A DNA stretch of 64,000 bases from Pedobacter xixiisoli. Its GTDB lineage: Bacteria > Bacteroidota > Bacteroidia > Sphingobacteriales > Sphingobacteriaceae. Where the stretch lies: positions 124,001 through 188,000 of the forward strand of contig NZ_OCMT01000004.1 in the NCBI RefSeq assembly GCF_900215335.1, written 5' to 3'. Each line of letters begins with the position of its first letter. Position 1 is the first letter of the stretch. The translations under genes and the position numbers were made by a program. Positions 53,593 through 60,336 of this stretch are shown piece by piece. The notes below the pieces were generated by a model. That model saw only the letters and a program-made list of their open reading frames with translations. It was not told the origin of the DNA and ran no database searches.

Positions 53593-53668
53593 CGTCATTT
53601 CGACGATAGGAGAAATCTAACAGGTTACACTTTCTTTTTGCGAGATTTCTCCTATCGTCGAAATGACG
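53593..53668. repeat. Perfect 26-bp inverted repeat of the GTCATT...AATCT family
   Basis: Left arm 53593-53618 and right arm 53643-53668 are exact reverse complements (starting CGTCATTTCGACG, ending GGAGAAATCT) with a 24-base spacer. It is the cleanest copy of the family; the spacer holds no gene. It lies in the 262-base gap between addB and the GNAT gene. Confidence 0.9.
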
Positions 53669-53731: not shown

Positions 53732-56572
53732 TCAAACCCCAAACAAAGTCTTATAAATAGAGTAACTATAATTATCTGGTACTTGACTAGCCCTAAAAGG
53801 AACGTTAACATCAAACAATTCTGCAATTTTAGCCTGTAGCTCTTCTAGAAAAATAGGTTTCACCTCCTCCAAATAAACATCAGACAACACCAATTTCCTC
53901 GAATTAAAATGCACCTTACCATCAGCCATAGTTTTTACGATAAAAAGATTAGGCTCTACGCCAGCTCTGCCCGATTGCCTTTCATAAGCATAAGTATAAA
54001 TTAAGGTTTGTATCAAAGCCTTGTTGATGCTTTTTCCATTGGTATCAAAAAGCTTTTCGATGGCAGAAAAAGTCAATTTATCGCCGCCTGTTTTATAATC
54101 TACAATACGGACCACACCATTTCTTTCATCTACCCTATCAATAAAACCAAACAGTTTAACCTGTTCTTTTTTTCCGTTCAGCTCAAATTCTAATTCCGTG
54201 CTAATTTTTTCCTCCAAACTTAAGATGGTAAACGGTGCATCGGCCTCATCTCTGTTTAAAATGATTCCTGCATAAGCTTCTACAATAGCCAAAATCACTT
54301 TCTGCATACCAGAATACTCCAACGTGCTTTCTTCTTTGTTAGTCATCACAAGGTTGAATGCTTTTGCAACCATTTGTTTTATACCTTTTCTTTTGAGTTT
54401 GATGACTTCTGGAGTGACCTCTTTATTGATTTCATTTTCGTAGAAATACTCCATCACCTTGTGCAAAATTGAACCAATCTGGTTAGCTTCAATCACGGCA
54501 GTTACTTCTTCCGGCTCCTTAATTTCCGCAATGTAACGGAAGAAAAAATCTATTGGATTAGAAATGTACATCGTTAACGCCGAGGGCGATAGCACCTTTT
54601 CTCCGCTCAAGTATCGCTTTAAGGCCTTTTGGATATTTTCGTCGTTTTTATCAATCTCGATAGCTTGCTGAGGTGCTGTGCTAACTGGCAAGTTTAATGC
54701 ACTATAATTGAATTTGAAGTTACTTTCATACTCTAGCTGTTTCAAAATCCTGCTCACTTCGCCAGTGTTACTTTCATCAGTCAAACTATTATAGACAAAA
54801 TTGATATTCTTTGCTCTTTGCAATAGACGATAAACCATATAAGAAGAAATTGCATCCAAATTCTCTAGTACTGGCAAGCCATAAGCTCTACGAATACCAT
54901 CTGGAATGAAGCTATTTCCAATGGAAGTTTTAGGGATAATCCCTTCGTTAAAGCCTAAAAATACGATATTATCAAAGTTGAGGTTACGACTTTCTAACAA
55001 ACCCATCATCTGTACACCTTTCAACGGGTCTCCACTTAAGGGCACCGAAACAACTTGCAATGATTTTTGAATGAGTTGTACCACAAAGTGAAATTCTTCA
55101 TCCTGCACAAAATCTTTTAGGGTGTCATTCAAACGGGTTAACTCCTCAATTGTCTTTACAAATAAATCTGCATCAATCTTTTTTAATGATTTTTGAGAAG
55201 ATAAACGCGTTAACAAAAACCTCATCACATCAAGCAGCTCGCTTACTAAACCTGAAGGTTCATCTACTTTGTGATAAAATTTCTCGAAAATGCCACCTTG
55301 CTTTTGCAGACGAGCTAAATCGACGTTTACCACATTATCCTTCAATAACGCTTCTTGAATATTTGATTTCAGTTTGGCACTTAACCCTGTGAGCGGGTGC
55401 GTTACAAAAGCTTCGAGGGTTTGGTAAGTTACTTTGTCATTTTCTTTGAGCTCCAACTGGGTTGTCAACCATAAATCGGCCAAGCCAAAAACGGTAGAAC
55501 TTGCCAAAGCAAAACCCATGGTCACATTCAAATCTATCTCATCATTGAGAGTTTGCAAAGCAGGCATCAACAAACTTTCATCGGCTAAGATAATGGCAGT
55601 TGTACCAATTTCTTCATCAACATCTTCGTTAATTTCAACTACCTGATTTAAGATTTTAGCCTGCGCACTTTGACCTTGAACTTTGTAAACATTTACCAAA
55701 TGTTGTTCCGAACTAAAAGTATGGTTATGTGTTTCAAAAACATTTTTCAATCCAAGCTGATGTAAGTTTTTACGCAAGAACAAACCTGCTTCCTGCAGCT
55801 CATCTTCTACATAATAAGCATCCGTATCAAAATAAAATAGAGCCTTGTCCGCTTCTTGCAGTCGTGTAAAGACCTTCGCTTCAGCACGAGTCAGCGCATT
55901 AAATCCAACGAAAATAATCTTCCCTTTTTCAAAAGATTTGATAAAATCTAGAGCAGTTAAATCTGTGCCTGCCAATTGACGATAGACTCGTCCATTGGTG
56001 ATATAATTTTGCGCTTTCAACTCTTCGTGAAAACGATGATATAGCTTTGGCATTCTGCGCCACATTTTAATAAAAAGCTCTTGCTGCTTTTTATGTTTCC
56101 CTTCGCTGTACGATTGCCAAAATTGTGCTAAAAATTCATATTGTTCTTTAGACAAATAATCGAATTCTAGGTTGATTTCAGCGACTTCTTCCATCTCCTG
56201 ATACAGCTTATCTGCATCTACCAAATCGTTGTCTATTTGCGCAAAATCGCTCAGCATAATTTTAGCCAAGGGAAAAAACTGACTACTTTTCATTGGCAAT
56301 AAACCTTCGTCCGCCAAAAGCTGATTATATACTTTCAATAGCGTGAAAAACTGCAAATAGAAATCAGCATTTTTTTCTTGTACACTGCCTGAAAAAAATT
56401 GCTGTATGGTGTAAATAGACGGACTAAAAAATGGCTTTTGAATAATATCTGCCAAATATTTTCGCAAATAAGTAGCAGGCCTATTGTTATTGAAAACGAT
56501 AGCACAGTATTGTAAATCATCGCCAAACTTGGCAACTAAATCTTGAGCAACTTCTTTTAAAAATGGGGTCAT
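53732..56572 (-). CDS. addB: AddB-like nuclease/helicase subunit (PD-(D/E)XK family)
   Basis: The second subunit of an AddAB-type double-strand break repair nuclease. The 946-residue protein has an inactive-helicase-like N-terminal two thirds (TIQQFFSGSV, GFNALTRAEAKVF, VFLGFNEGIIPKTSIGNSF) and a C-terminal nuclease domain (ALTMYISNPIDFFFRYI; then LFGFIDRVDERNGVVRIVDY followed by KTGG, the D-x-x-DYK active site). AddA lies upstream, separated by 509 bases that hold a GIY-YIG element. The Fe-S cysteines of Firmicute AddB are not obvious. Confidence 0.8.
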   Translation of the reverse strand: MTPFLKEVAQDLVAKFGDDLQYCAIVFNNNRPATYLRKYLADIIQKPFFSPSIYTIQQFFSGSVQEKNADFYLQFFTLLKVYNQLLADEGLLPMKSSQFFPLAKIMLSDFAQIDNDLVDADKLYQEMEEVAEINLEFDYLSKEQYEFLAQFWQSYSEGKHKKQQELFIKMWRRMPKLYHRFHEELKAQNYITNGRVYRQLAGTDLTALDFIKSFEKGKIIFVGFNALTRAEAKVFTRLQEADKALFYFDTDAYYVEDELQEAGLFLRKNLHQLGLKNVFETHNHTFSSEQHLVNVYKVQGQSAQAKILNQVVEINEDVDEEIGTTAIILADESLLMPALQTLNDEIDLNVTMGFALASSTVFGLADLWLTTQLELKENDKVTYQTLEAFVTHPLTGLSAKLKSNIQEALLKDNVVNVDLARLQKQGGIFEKFYHKVDEPSGLVSELLDVMRFLLTRLSSQKSLKKIDADLFVKTIEELTRLNDTLKDFVQDEEFHFVVQLIQKSLQVVSVPLSGDPLKGVQMMGLLESRNLNFDNIVFLGFNEGIIPKTSIGNSFIPDGIRRAYGLPVLENLDAISSYMVYRLLQRAKNINFVYNSLTDESNTGEVSRILKQLEYESNFKFNYSALNLPVSTAPQQAIEIDKNDENIQKALKRYLSGEKVLSPSALTMYISNPIDFFFRYIAEIKEPEEVTAVIEANQIGSILHKVMEYFYENEINKEVTPEVIKLKRKGIKQMVAKAFNLVMTNKEESTLEYSGMQKVILAIVEAYAGIILNRDEADAPFTILSLEEKISTELEFELNGKKEQVKLFGFIDRVDERNGVVRIVDYKTGGDKLTFSAIEKLFDTNGKSINKALIQTLIYTYAYERQSGRAGVEPNLFIVKTMADGKVHFNSRKLVLSDVYLEEVKPIFLEELQAKIAELFDVNVPFRASQVPDNYSYSIYKTLFGV

Positions 56573-56585
56573 TTTAATTTACGTA

Positions 56586-56680
56586 TTTGCGAGTACAACG
56601 CAGTAAAGCGAAGTGGACTCTTTTTCTTTAACTCAACTGTAGTTTATTAAAGACCGCTTCATTTGTCACAGCGACGATAA
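56586..56680. repeat. Degenerate second inverted pair beside the GIY-YIG unit
   Basis: TTTGCGAGTACAACG...AAGTGGACT on the left and a reverse-complement-like AGACCGCTTC...CACAGCGACG on the right are weak relatives of the 56687/57048 arms. The match is imperfect. Confidence 0.4.
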
Positions 56681-56686
56681 TAGGAA

Positions 56687-57074
56687 CGTCTTTGCGAGGA
56701 GGAACGACGAAGCAATCTCTTTTTAATTAAATATTAATCTCATCAAACAAATCTTTCCATTCAGGATTTAAACTCTTTATCAATTTAATTTTAGAGAGCC
56801 TACTTGCTCCCTTAATTCTCTTTTCTTCAGCGATAGCATCTTCAATTGTTGGATAAAAACAATAGTAAACCAATTTATCACAATTAAATTTCGCTGTAAA
56901 TCCCAACGAATACTCTTTATTTTTGTGTTGCAAAATTCTAGATAGAATATCTGACGTTACACCAGTGTAAAGTACGGTATTCAATTTATTTGTTATTATA
57001 TAAACCAATCCACCTCTCTCCATATTTTCAAATCAGCCTTTTGCTTAGAGACTGCTTCGTACCTCGCAGTGACG
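56687..57074. mobile_element. GIY-YIG gene framed by inverted repeats (candidate element)
   Basis: The left arm (56687-56719; CGTCTTTGCGAGGAGGAACG then ACGAAGCAATCTC) and the right arm (57048-57074; on the minus strand CGTCACTGCGAGG then TACGAAGCAGTCTC) are inverted copies, differing by six deleted bases and a few substitutions. Exactly between them lies the 297-base GIY-YIG gene. The unit, 388 bases, occupies nearly all of the addA-addB gap and ends eight bases before the addA stop. The three gene-free pairs at 46.2, 47.1 and 53.6 kb have the same outer and inner ends. Mobility is an inference. Confidence 0.5.
56727..57023 (-). CDS. GIY-YIG family endonuclease-like protein
   Basis: A 98-residue single-domain GIY-YIG protein of the YhbQ/COG2827 type. 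Motifs in order: GLVYIITNK and VLYTGVTSDI (the GIY and YIG equivalents), SRILQHK (catalytic arginine), EEKRIKG (glutamate metal ligand) and NPEWKDLFDEI, the typical ending. The catalytic residues appear intact. The gene lies between inverted repeats and interrupts the addA-addB pair, so it probably moved in as part of a repeat unit. Such proteins are numerous in Bacteroidota; the natural substrate is unknown. Confidence 0.88.
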   Translation of the reverse strand: MERGGLVYIITNKLNTVLYTGVTSDILSRILQHKNKEYSLGFTAKFNCDKLVYYCFYPTIEDAIAEEKRIKGASRLSKIKLIKSLNPEWKDLFDEINI

Positions 57075-57081
57075 ACCTTGA

Positions 57082-60000
57082 TTAAACCTCCCTTAGTTCT
57101 TGCTTAACGGCATAGAACAGATAGCTTTTCACTTTACCAAAACCCATCTGTGTTAGCAAATCCTTATAGTTTAAAATCTGCTCGATGTGTTGGTCCGTTT
57201 GTTCTAAAGTAAATTTGTAGTCGATAATGGTTACGCCATCTGCATGCACCACAATCCTATCAGGGCGATGCAATTTTCCGTCTGCATCGATGATATTCTT
57301 CTCAATAATATTTTCTGTGGATTGTGCTAAAATTGCTTTCAATTCTGGATGGTTGAGCACTTCCATCACACCGTCTCTCAATCCATCAAATTCATCCTTA
57401 GCAATTACACCTGAGAGCAGCATTTCGTTCAAGCAATCTTCCACTTCTTGGGCTGTAGTGGCATTTGCCAAAACTTCGTGTTTTATAGAACCAACCCGAC
57501 CAGACTGCTCAATGTTGAGCACATGTTGTAAATGTTTTTCTTGTGACGGAACATACAAAGCCGACAAACGATTGGTCGTTGGATATTCTTCCAATTCGAA
57601 ACCATTATTGTCTTCGGCTTTTTCAGGTTCAATTATATCTGCTATAATCTCATATCGATTGGTAGCTTCAAAGCCCTCTTCTTCACCAACATTTAACTGA
57701 TTAATTACCTGTGCTAAAGCATCGCCAACCGAAGTGATATTCGAAGCATCTTTCTTTTCCATCACCGATAGGTACAGATAATCCTTAGACCTTGTTGTGG
57801 CTACATAAAGCATATTCAAAGCATCTAAATTACTATCTAACACTTCTTTATAATAGGCTTTGGCCACACTCGAATTACTCAAATCGTCTTCAAATTTTAG
57901 CGGAATTCCACCTAGTTCTTTATACGCAGTTTCGGCAGCCGAAACCCAAAAAATAGAATTGGCTTTGGTCTTTAAATCCCAGTTACAAAAGGGCACAAAA
58001 ACCGCTCTAAAGGCCAACCCTTTTGATTTATGAATAGTAATAATTTGAACCGCATCAGCTTCGTCTGGCGAAGGCAGCGATTTCTTCACGCCATCTTCAT
58101 CCCACCAAGTCAAGAAATTGACGATACCTTTTTCGCCCATTCGAGTTGCATTGGCAACTAAATCTCTAAAAGCTAGTAAGTAAGGAATATGTTGTTTCAA
58201 ACCTGCAATACCATAAGCTTCTATCAGGTTTTCTACCAATTCTATCAATGGTAATTGCATCCAGTTTTGCCAATTTTCGCATAGCGATTTCGGAAGTAGT
58301 GCGGACAAATCGGTCAAAGATTTCCCTGTTAAGCCCAAATAAGCCGTTGGCGATATCTCTCTAGCATGCAAACGATGATAGAGCGAAATGCAATTTGCTT
58401 TGTAAAGTGCTGTTTGTTTGTCTATTCCTACCAAAATTTTAAGCGTATTGATAATCAAATCAATTGCATTATTATTTGCTATCATTAAAGCTTCGCCAGA
58501 TAAAACTGGGATATTTTGCTCCATTAAACGCGTTACACAAAGCATTGCCTCGAAGTTAGAGCGAACCAAAATGGCTATATCTTTAGCTTGATAAGCTTTC
58601 TCCGTTTGTAGCACTTTGATTTCGTCAATCACATCTTGAAGAGCGATTTCCCTATAAACTGTTTCTGTAAAACGTTCTTCCGCTCGTTCTTCACCTACAT
58701 CAGCTTTGCCAAAACGCTTAACTTTGATGGTACCACCTGATTTAGTAAATGGCGATAAATTCTGTTTCGCTTTTCCGTAAACCGAAGTTACAATATCGCT
58801 GTAGCCATTTTCATCCCACCATTCCAGTAATTCATCTGATTTTTCGGTAACGTTGGTGTTCAACTGGTTTTGCACTACCAAAGGCAGCGCTTGGTACAGA
58901 TAATTATTAAAAGTGATGATATTTTCGGTGCTTCGGTAATTTTCTTCTAGATTCTCATCCAGCACATTATGCTCGCCAATTTCGTGTTTGGCCTGTTGAT
59001 GCAAGATATTCCAATCGCCGTTGCGCCAGCGGTAAATAGATTGCTTGGTATCACCAACAATTAAATTATCGATGTGTTTTTGACTTGGCGAAGCAATGGC
59101 GTTGGATAAAATGGACCGAAAACTTTTCCATTGGTTAACGGAAGTATCCTGAAACTCGTCGAACAAGAAGTTACGGTACTTGCTACCCACTTTCTCCCAA
59201 ATAAAGGACGGATTATCTCCAGCGTCATCGGTAATTCCAGTAATTAATTTTTGTGCATCACTGATAAGCAAATTGTCGTTTTCGTTACGATAGTCGCTCA
59301 ATAAAACAGCCACCTCTTGCATTAAACGCAAATAATAAAGGTTTTTGTTAAAAGCGATGGATAAGCTGTAAGTTGCTAAATTTTGCTCGTGATAAGTCTT
59401 GATATTGCCCAATTGAGCATTCAATTCGCCATAAAAAGCTGGCAGATCAATGCCTTTTTGAAACCATTCATCCGGTTCATCAATGAGTTTAAATACCGCA
59501 TCTAACTTGGAAAAATCTCCATCCGAAATATTGCGAACTTTTAATAATCCATTTCTAGATTTTCCTTTCAGTTGCTCTACTAAAATGCCGTGATTTTCGA
59601 AAACTTGCCATGCTGATGAACCCAACTCTTTCAATCTATTTTGAAATTGATTGATTTCTGCTTTAGTAACACTGATGTAGTTTTTAAAAAGTTCATCCAA
59701 ACTCGACAAACCCAATGCATTAATTGCAGTTTCAAAAACCTCGTAACTATCTTTAAAAACCTCGCTAATTAAGTTAACGAGCTCAGATTTATAATTCCAA
59801 CTTTTGTTCTCTCCAATGCGTTCTAAAGCCAAATCAATAATCCATTGTAATAATTGTTGGTTATGATTTAAACTTTCATCTAGCTTCTGCACCAACTCAT
59901 CTTTCACCTTGTCGTAGTTCATCTCCAAGGTGTAATCTGCATTTAAACCAAGTTCAAAAGCAAATCCACGAATTACTTTTTGTACAAAGCCATCAATGGT

Positions 60001-60336
60001 ACTCACCGCAAAGCGACTATAATCATGCAGAATTTTACGATAAACTTTGTCGGCTTTAAGCTTTAAGCTCTCTGCACTAAGCTCAGGATGTGCAGCCAAA
60101 ACAATCACTCGATAATCCTCAATTTTCTTCGAAGCATCGCCCATGGCAAAACCTTTGAGTACTTCGAGAATACGGGTTTTCATTTCTTCAGTAGCCTTGT
60201 TGGTAAAGGTTACCGCTAAAATTTCCCGATATTTATTATCGCCACTAAAAAGTAGAGTAAGGTAATGTGCCGCCAAGCTGAAGGTTTTCCCAGAGCCCGC
60301 CGATGCTTGTAGTATTTTGAGTGGTTTTACAGCCAT
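57082..60336 (-). CDS. addA: AddA-like UvrD/RecB helicase-nuclease
   Basis: The motor subunit of an AddAB-type recombination complex. The 1084-residue protein has Walker A in ILQASAGSGKTFSLAAHY, the AVTFTNKATEEMK motif, LFDEFQDTSVNQW (Walker B), VGDTKQSIYRWRNGDW, VQIITIHKSKGLAFRAVF and LYVATTRSKDYLYL, i.e. a complete SF1A helicase, and a C-terminal RecB-like nuclease (LHRPDRIVVHADGVTIIDYK). addB is next on the same strand, but the pair is split by the GIY-YIG unit. Confidence 0.88.
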   Translation of the reverse strand: MAVKPLKILQASAGSGKTFSLAAHYLTLLFSGDNKYREILAVTFTNKATEEMKTRILEVLKGFAMGDASKKIEDYRVIVLAAHPELSAESLKLKADKVYRKILHDYSRFAVSTIDGFVQKVIRGFAFELGLNADYTLEMNYDKVKDELVQKLDESLNHNQQLLQWIIDLALERIGENKSWNYKSELVNLISEVFKDSYEVFETAINALGLSSLDELFKNYISVTKAEINQFQNRLKELGSSAWQVFENHGILVEQLKGKSRNGLLKVRNISDGDFSKLDAVFKLIDEPDEWFQKGIDLPAFYGELNAQLGNIKTYHEQNLATYSLSIAFNKNLYYLRLMQEVAVLLSDYRNENDNLLISDAQKLITGITDDAGDNPSFIWEKVGSKYRNFLFDEFQDTSVNQWKSFRSILSNAIASPSQKHIDNLIVGDTKQSIYRWRNGDWNILHQQAKHEIGEHNVLDENLEENYRSTENIITFNNYLYQALPLVVQNQLNTNVTEKSDELLEWWDENGYSDIVTSVYGKAKQNLSPFTKSGGTIKVKRFGKADVGEERAEERFTETVYREIALQDVIDEIKVLQTEKAYQAKDIAILVRSNFEAMLCVTRLMEQNIPVLSGEALMIANNNAIDLIINTLKILVGIDKQTALYKANCISLYHRLHAREISPTAYLGLTGKSLTDLSALLPKSLCENWQNWMQLPLIELVENLIEAYGIAGLKQHIPYLLAFRDLVANATRMGEKGIVNFLTWWDEDGVKKSLPSPDEADAVQIITIHKSKGLAFRAVFVPFCNWDLKTKANSIFWVSAAETAYKELGGIPLKFEDDLSNSSVAKAYYKEVLDSNLDALNMLYVATTRSKDYLYLSVMEKKDASNITSVGDALAQVINQLNVGEEEGFEATNRYEIIADIIEPEKAEDNNGFELEEYPTTNRLSALYVPSQEKHLQHVLNIEQSGRVGSIKHEVLANATTAQEVEDCLNEMLLSGVIAKDEFDGLRDGVMEVLNHPELKAILAQSTENIIEKNIIDADGKLHRPDRIVVHADGVTIIDYKFTLEQTDQHIEQILNYKDLLTQMGFGKVKSYLFYAVKQELREV

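Follow-up and report, generated by a model that had tools for sequence, protein, structure and literature searches.

Several described systems resemble in part the locus reported here. In the RAYT/REPtron/REPIN systems one enzyme gene is framed by paired REPs and many further dimers stand free of any gene, and RAYT enzyme genes are mostly inherited vertically. Ssn, reportedly presented in Nature Communications in 2025, is said to stand for widespread GIY-YIG nucleases acting on single-stranded DNA, which they cut at a repeated sequence that occurs in hundreds of copies in Neisseria, and many homologues reportedly have cognate sequences of their own. GIY-YIG homing endonucleases of the I-TevI type offer the catalytic domain and the flavor of a selfish element. 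The CGTC-tagged REP superfamily was defined by Di Nocera et al. in 2013 as repeats with a CGTC or TGTC outer tag, a palindromic stem usually opening with AT and a short tail, found in many copies and as head-to-head dimers in Bacteroidetes, alpha-Proteobacteria and Neisseriae, with Novosphingobium aromaticivorans and Sinorhizobium meliloti among the species named (PMC3733652). In the part of that account on which we draw, CGTC units are not described as flanking any transposase, and the dispersal enzyme is left open (PMC3733652).

The repeats described below share with the CGTC REPs the outer CGTC/TGTC tag, the palindromic stem, the head-to-head dimers and the many copies, and differ from the 2013 account in that a GIY-YIG family here appears to fill the place of the dispersal enzyme. 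As in the RAYT systems, one enzyme gene is framed by a repeat pair and many dimers are gene-free; the enzyme is GIY-YIG and not a HUH tyrosine transposase, and the tag is CGTC and not GTAG, which makes the system an analogue of RAYT rather than a member. With Ssn, as reported, the system has in common a small stand-alone GIY-YIG enzyme and a multi-copy cognate sequence; if Ssn is as outlined above, the gene described here is probably a relative, and the enzyme-repeat relation is probably already in print at least for Neisseria. Unlike the I-TevI type, the locus shows no intron or intein and its flanking repeats are intact, and since the protein has only 98 amino acids there is no long DNA-binding part. 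The nearest solved sequences are the small single-domain GIY-YIG proteins of UPF0213 (PDB 1zg2 and 1ywl; E values of 9.4e-5 and 0.0026), to which the sequence relation is distant.

The window, a stretch of 64,000 nucleotides of Pedobacter xixiisoli DNA (NZ_OCMT01000004.1, positions 124,001 to 188,000), had been described in an initial annotation as holding a GIY-YIG gene between inverted repeats in the 509 bp that separate addA from addB (56573-57081). This framing is confirmed as a real observation, with coordinates correct to within a base (Table 1); the unit had been said to end 8 bases from the addA stop, and we measured 7 bases from that stop to the start of the repeat.

Table 1. Features of the nuclease locus and its surroundings, in window coordinates
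Feature	Position	Strand	Remarks
GIY-YIG nuclease gene (predicted)	56727-57023	-	ORF of 98 codons, 98 aa, starts MERGGLVYIITNKLNTVLYTGVTSD...
Upstream CGTC repeat, F relative to the gene	57047-57074	-	CGTCACTGCGAGGTACGAAGCAGTCTCT
Downstream CGTC repeat, inverted, R relative to the gene	56687-56720	+	CGTCTTTGCGAGGAGGAACGACGAAGCAATCTCT
Third CGTC repeat, degenerate, addB side	56649-56676	-	Alignment score 8
Possible fourth repeat, strongly degenerate, addB side, doubtful	56582-56621	+	CGTA tag; score 7.5, weak
addA-like gene, host context	57082-60336	-	UvrD helicase domains (Pfam)
addB-like gene, host context	53732-56572	-	PDDEXK_1 (Pfam)
Gene-free inverted dimer, second CGTC repeat type	53593-53668		CGTCATTTCGACGATAGGAGAAATC; just past the addB stop; halves 53593-53617 (+) and 53644-53668 (-)

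The protein matches the GIY-YIG domain PF01541 with an E value of 6.8e-15 (55.6 bits against a cut-off of 22.6); this was its sole Pfam match, and the HUH tyrosine transposase domain PF01797 was not detected. Compared with CGTCATTGCGAGGTACGAAGCAATCTCT, the upstream repeat has 2 mismatches and the downstream repeat 2 mismatches and a 6-bp insert (alignment scores of 24 and 19.5), with 23 and 6 bases, respectively, between them and the gene. Read from the outside in, both open with CGTC, and neither carries a GTAG tag. Rfam gave no match to positions 56000-57600 at E values up to 0.1, PADLOC gave none, and tblastn gave none in phages. Because the window repeat pattern, at up to 2 mismatches, has 83 matches in its own genome and a reversed control has 0, and because of the flank controls described below, the window repeats are not due to chance.

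With patterns of different strictness, the four repeat types distinguished below gave 83, 34, 151 and 1 matches in the own genome, and head-to-head dimers were seen. Around other family genes of this genome different stems, read by eye, stand behind the same kind of tag. In the window, in relatives and in an edge profile, the copies adjoining the gene carry the CGTC/TGTC tag at their outer end, and the element edge is sharp, with 2.1-2.4 bits at the base before GTC, 0.6 bits at the next base outward in the GC and TC types and at most 0.17 beyond; the CC type (n=20), and partly the CT type (n=31), have some flanking and spacer sequence in common. Stem bases covary, as read from one pair, the remaining stem being fixed by the search pattern: the third stem pair of the CT type is G-C in 28, C-G in 27, A-T in 9 and G-T in 2 cases (64 of 66 Watson-Crick), and the TC-type pair is Watson-Crick in 123 of 129. 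One CT and one CC example had the 8-9 bp stem and 4-5 nt loop of a CGTC REP and folded far better than shuffled sequences (z about -5), and one TC example showed no expected stem and folded no better than shuffles. The upstream window copy has a 5-bp stem and a 10-nt loop, the downstream copy does not fold into the expected stem, and neither folds better than shuffles. The window copies, of the GC type, thus differ from the CGTC REP definition in their shorter stem and longer loop, and we call them CGTC-like because the 8-9 bp stem and 4-5 nt loop are lacking. Some TGTCATGCTGAGG dimers (L268, L262 and L265, read by eye) share sequence outside the tag (TTTTTATTTGCAGCAACC...), so this unit may exceed a REP dimer.

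In order to compare the framing across relatives, three intact family members of the own genome were used as search queries, and the flanks were taken from the best 80 of 576 loci, in named organisms of several phyla, and from 30 loci of the genus. Each gene was scored for a CGTC hairpin tag within 300 bp, with equal windows 1-1.9 kb away, mostly coding, as controls. Short flanks were left out, so that 108 of 115 units were scored for tags and 114 for flank matching; some loci contain two tandem units, and four pairs of loci fetched twice (L045/L096, L047/L062, L055/L061 and L057/L123) are one locus each. Tags were found on both sides of 81 of the 108 genes, on one side of 24 and on neither side of 3, and in 44 of 357 control windows. 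Repeat, gene and inverted repeat was the commonest order (41 of 108); in 16 the order was reversed, in 24 the tags had the same orientation on both sides, and in 27 at least one side had no tag. A score of at least 15 for the best inverted match between the two flanks was seen in 67 of 114 genes, compared with 94 of 600 cross-locus pairs (medians of 16.75 and 10.5). Direct matching of the flanks gave still higher scores (median 39.25, compared with 16.75 for inverted matching), apparently owing to whole dimers, which often occur to the left as well as to the right of the gene.

Since the control windows were mostly coding, sister GIY-YIG families of the same genus provided a stricter control. 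Among 20 further family members 18 had tags on both sides and two on one side. The corresponding numbers were 0 of 20 and 10 in the first sister family and one of 20 and six in the second, a group that includes L196 and L201, members of the first sister family. None of the seven RAYT-type (PF01797) genes of the own genome had a CGTC hairpin tag within 300 bp, which for this genome accords with the 2013 account. The framing also extends to an alphaproteobacterial family (genome G060, Porphyrobacter locus L125), sampled as the best match in each of 30 among 44 matching genomes, of 59: in the 29 loci scored, tags were present on both sides in 16, on one side in 10 and on neither in 3, against 25 of 116 controls, and in 17 the mirror match scored above the 95th percentile for cross-locus pairs. 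Flanks from a plasmid collection were read by eye in 10 of 30 records. By eye, the N. aromaticivorans homologue is flanked by CGTC repeats whose mirror pair is exact over the REP, the S. meliloti and Neisseria gonorrhoeae homologues also adjoin CGTC repeats, and the Rhizobium tumorigenes record shows no CGTC repeats beside the homologue. The repeats thus do flank other copies of the gene, and the initial proposal of a repeat-framed nuclease, in concept like a REP-associated transposase with a GIY-YIG enzyme, holds as a general and not a local arrangement, on the strength of the flank counts, the sister families, the alphaproteobacterial family and the matching of repeat types.

For this matching the repeats were typed by two stem bases into GC, TC, CC and CT types in a set of 128 distinct proteins (of 138), 40 of which lacked a type on at least one side because a tag was missing or the stem belonged to none of the four types. 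All 88 genes with a type assigned on either side showed the same type left and right, whereas in 5000 shuffles the number of agreeing genes averaged 29.4 and never exceeded 45; within the genus 44 of 44 agreed. On the nuclease tree the type changed 12 times against 52.9 after shuffling (123 typed rows), within the genus four times, the minimum being three, against 26.4 (50 rows), and with 20 more loci six times against 36.7 (66 typed rows). Several repeat types coexist within single genomes. Joint inheritance of a gene and its ends would give much of the type agreement, and these data speak to pairing, not to cutting.

Repeat numbers were compared with the presence of the family in 60 Pedobacter-group genomes (the genus was identified by named members). 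Pseudogenes were counted as present, a contig-edge match in G015 as absent, and repeats adjacent to the nuclease genes themselves were included. Counting the four types together, no genome among the 32 that carry the family has fewer than 22 repeats (median 172); of the 28 without it, 21 have fewer than 10 and seven have 15 to 300. Clades were read off the nuclease tree, with L166, L171 and L177 placed by identity to typed proteins. Across the 32 genomes, the median number of repeats with and without the matching clade was 56.5 and 17.5 for the GC type (one-sided p 1.3e-4), 94 and 22 for the TC type (p 0.012), 13.5 and 1.5 for the CC type (p 0.010), and 35 and 19 for the CT type, where the difference was not significant (p 0.15). 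The true pairing of clades and types ranks first of 24 assignments. This association with copy number is suggestive, because the genomes are related and a species-tree control yielded only 2 independent pairs. The presence of a fifth nuclease clade, N (NHNYFVYILTNKNKT...), goes with no repeat type in these 32 genomes; CT- or CC-type tags lie near eight of its nine members (L236-L244). Five genomes (G007, G010, G021, G025 and G052) have about 100 to 300 repeats and no family gene was found in them, for which recent loss, incomplete assembly or another enzyme are alternatives.

Residues Y8, Y19, R29, H33, E67 and N86 are invariant across all family rows covering the respective position (127 or 128 rows). 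We take these to be the catalytic-type positions of the GIY-YIG superfamily, and since they are kept the enzyme is presumably active. By analogy with RAYT, we think it probable that the nuclease and the CGTC-tagged palindromic repeats form a matched partnership, a RAYT-like pair with an unrelated enzyme. Each nuclease clade would pair with its own stem sequence, the gene being flanked by or enclosed in copies of the matching repeat, of which a genome usually has tens to hundreds more that are gene-free. We infer that the enzyme recognizes and nicks its cognate repeat, probably, as the RAYT/REPIN analogy suggests, as a hairpin on single-stranded DNA, and that the cut ends would let repeat dimers spread or recombine; the nuclease gene itself would mostly be inherited in place. 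In the window, one such nuclease-repeat unit would have entered the addA-addB junction. A wider statement may also prove true, and we put it forward tentatively: the nuclease would be an enzyme dedicated to dispersing the CGTC REP superfamily and, beside RAYT/REPIN, a second independently evolved enzyme-REP replicator, spread over many phyla, with co-evolving specificities of enzyme and hairpin and with repeats copied via nuclease-cut single strands.

Among the literature matches listed, no paper joined GIY-YIG nucleases to CGTC REPs. As far as can be told, the present data contribute a general link to the CGTC REPs as a class, the observation that the gene is framed by them, the pairing of each clade with its repeat type and the association with copy number. 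The spread of CGTC repeats, which occur in several phyla, has been an open question since their definition in 2013, and a matched enzyme makes it directly testable; the recurrence of the pairing in many bacterial groups suggests that this enzyme is the missing partner of the repeats. Should it move them, two unrelated folds would have given rise to the same lifestyle, a REP served by a single dedicated nuclease. In addition, the matched pairs amount to a panel of small predicted nucleases with different repeat partners.

It is conceivable, if unlikely, that the repeats serve instead as marks for cleavage of incoming or exposed single-stranded DNA by the nuclease, which would tune transformation or recombination, and that they are kept or spread in some other way. 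The function reportedly assigned to Ssn in Neisseria in 2025 would fit, as would the Neisseria gonorrhoeae homologue, 46.7% identical to a family member of the own genome over 91% of the query, which by eye adjoins CGTCATTCCC..GGGAAT repeats. A study of evolving Legionella describes 11 intergenic regions next to GIY-YIG genes as mutation hotspots and inferred recombination sites that lacked experimental confirmation by the authors (PMC12308824); these too are in keeping with marks, and they are also independent support for the nuclease-REP mechanism proposed above. Marks alone leave unexplained why copy number tracks the cognate clade for three types and why the repeats frame the gene. The two readings are not mutually exclusive.

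That the nuclease gene is a homing-type parasite, which would home into dimers spread by another system and use the repeats as landing sites, appears improbable. The gene often lies in a dimer spacer (the 41 of 108 above), repeats are present in 7 of the 28 genomes that lack the family while the family occurs without repeats in 0 of 32, and spacer bases adjoining the stem are conserved in the CC type and partly in the CT type, all of which would suit homing. However, the target of a homing enzyme is interrupted by the enzyme's own insertion (PMC1564403), whereas the repeats on both sides of the nuclease gene are intact, and the GC and TC types show little spacer conservation past the first bases. 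The mobility of the gene bears on the same point. Of 21 family pairs that are near-identical (at least 90%), four are tandem in one locus, and the non-tandem pairs have more than 400 bp in common on both sides in 10 cases, on one side in five and on neither in two. Near-identical genes are thus mostly in place or in tandem, which argues against homing and weakens the earlier suggestion that the gene mobilizes itself; it is the repeats that are numerous, not the gene. Among three close genomes no base-exact empty sites of repeat dimers were found: of 108 cluster comparisons, 70 had the same length, 18 a different length that was not base-exact, and 20 shared one flank only.

That the nuclease or its repeats form a module with AddAB, modulating end processing, or that the junction is a preferred site, we hold to be very improbable. 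All addA-addB gaps were measured in 58 genomes with an AddB match. The gene lies at the junction in three (the window genome, G055 and G005) and is therefore not at the same site in all relatives; in the other 55 it is missing there, 38 genomes have gaps of 20 bp or less, and most family copies sit elsewhere. In favor of such a module or site are the presence of the gene in G055 and also in G005, where AddB is only about 60% identical, and the gene-free repeats read by eye at the junction in G022, G054 and G044 (a remnant is seen in G017). A comparison of this junction among relatives, as the initial annotation had proposed, thus turned up sites with and without the gene and gave no support to a role with AddAB.

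The G055 gap measures 946 bp and has gene fragments in tandem, its AddB being 88% identical to that of the window, and a repeat-repeat junction there is similar, by eye, to the degenerate third copy of the window. The G005 gap, of 2232 bp, has tandem repeats, and near 61388-61645 of contig C12 (L234/L314) it holds a gene of the window type, the repeat variant CACTGC..GCAGTC again lying right after the stop of addA. Since G055 is near by AddB and G005 is not, the insertion may be old and later lost in places, may have been transferred or may have recurred. In the gaps of G055 (L206) and G005 (L314), full and internally deleted nuclease copies alternate, by eye, with repeat pairs in tandem, and these arrays resemble autonomous and deleted forms of one element. 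The same junction holds a different ORF region of about 1.1 kb in L215, L219, L224 and L229 and a broken one of 505 bp in L228, which we presume to be reminiscent of DUF1016/YhcG-type nucleases, and one more relative has a further ORF region there.

Coincidence, by which the repeats, abundant in the surveyed genomes, crowd intergenic DNA and hence also adjoin the nuclease gene, we regard as already refuted, because the sister GIY-YIG genes of the same genus lack the framing, the types match in 88 of 88 genes, and the types agree with the nuclease tree.

A different small GIY-YIG type in the own genome was seen, by eye, directly behind tRNA genes (L002, L003 and L007). In at least L002 and L003 the 3' part of the tRNA and the terminator recur behind it, as if it had inserted at the tRNA end with a duplication.
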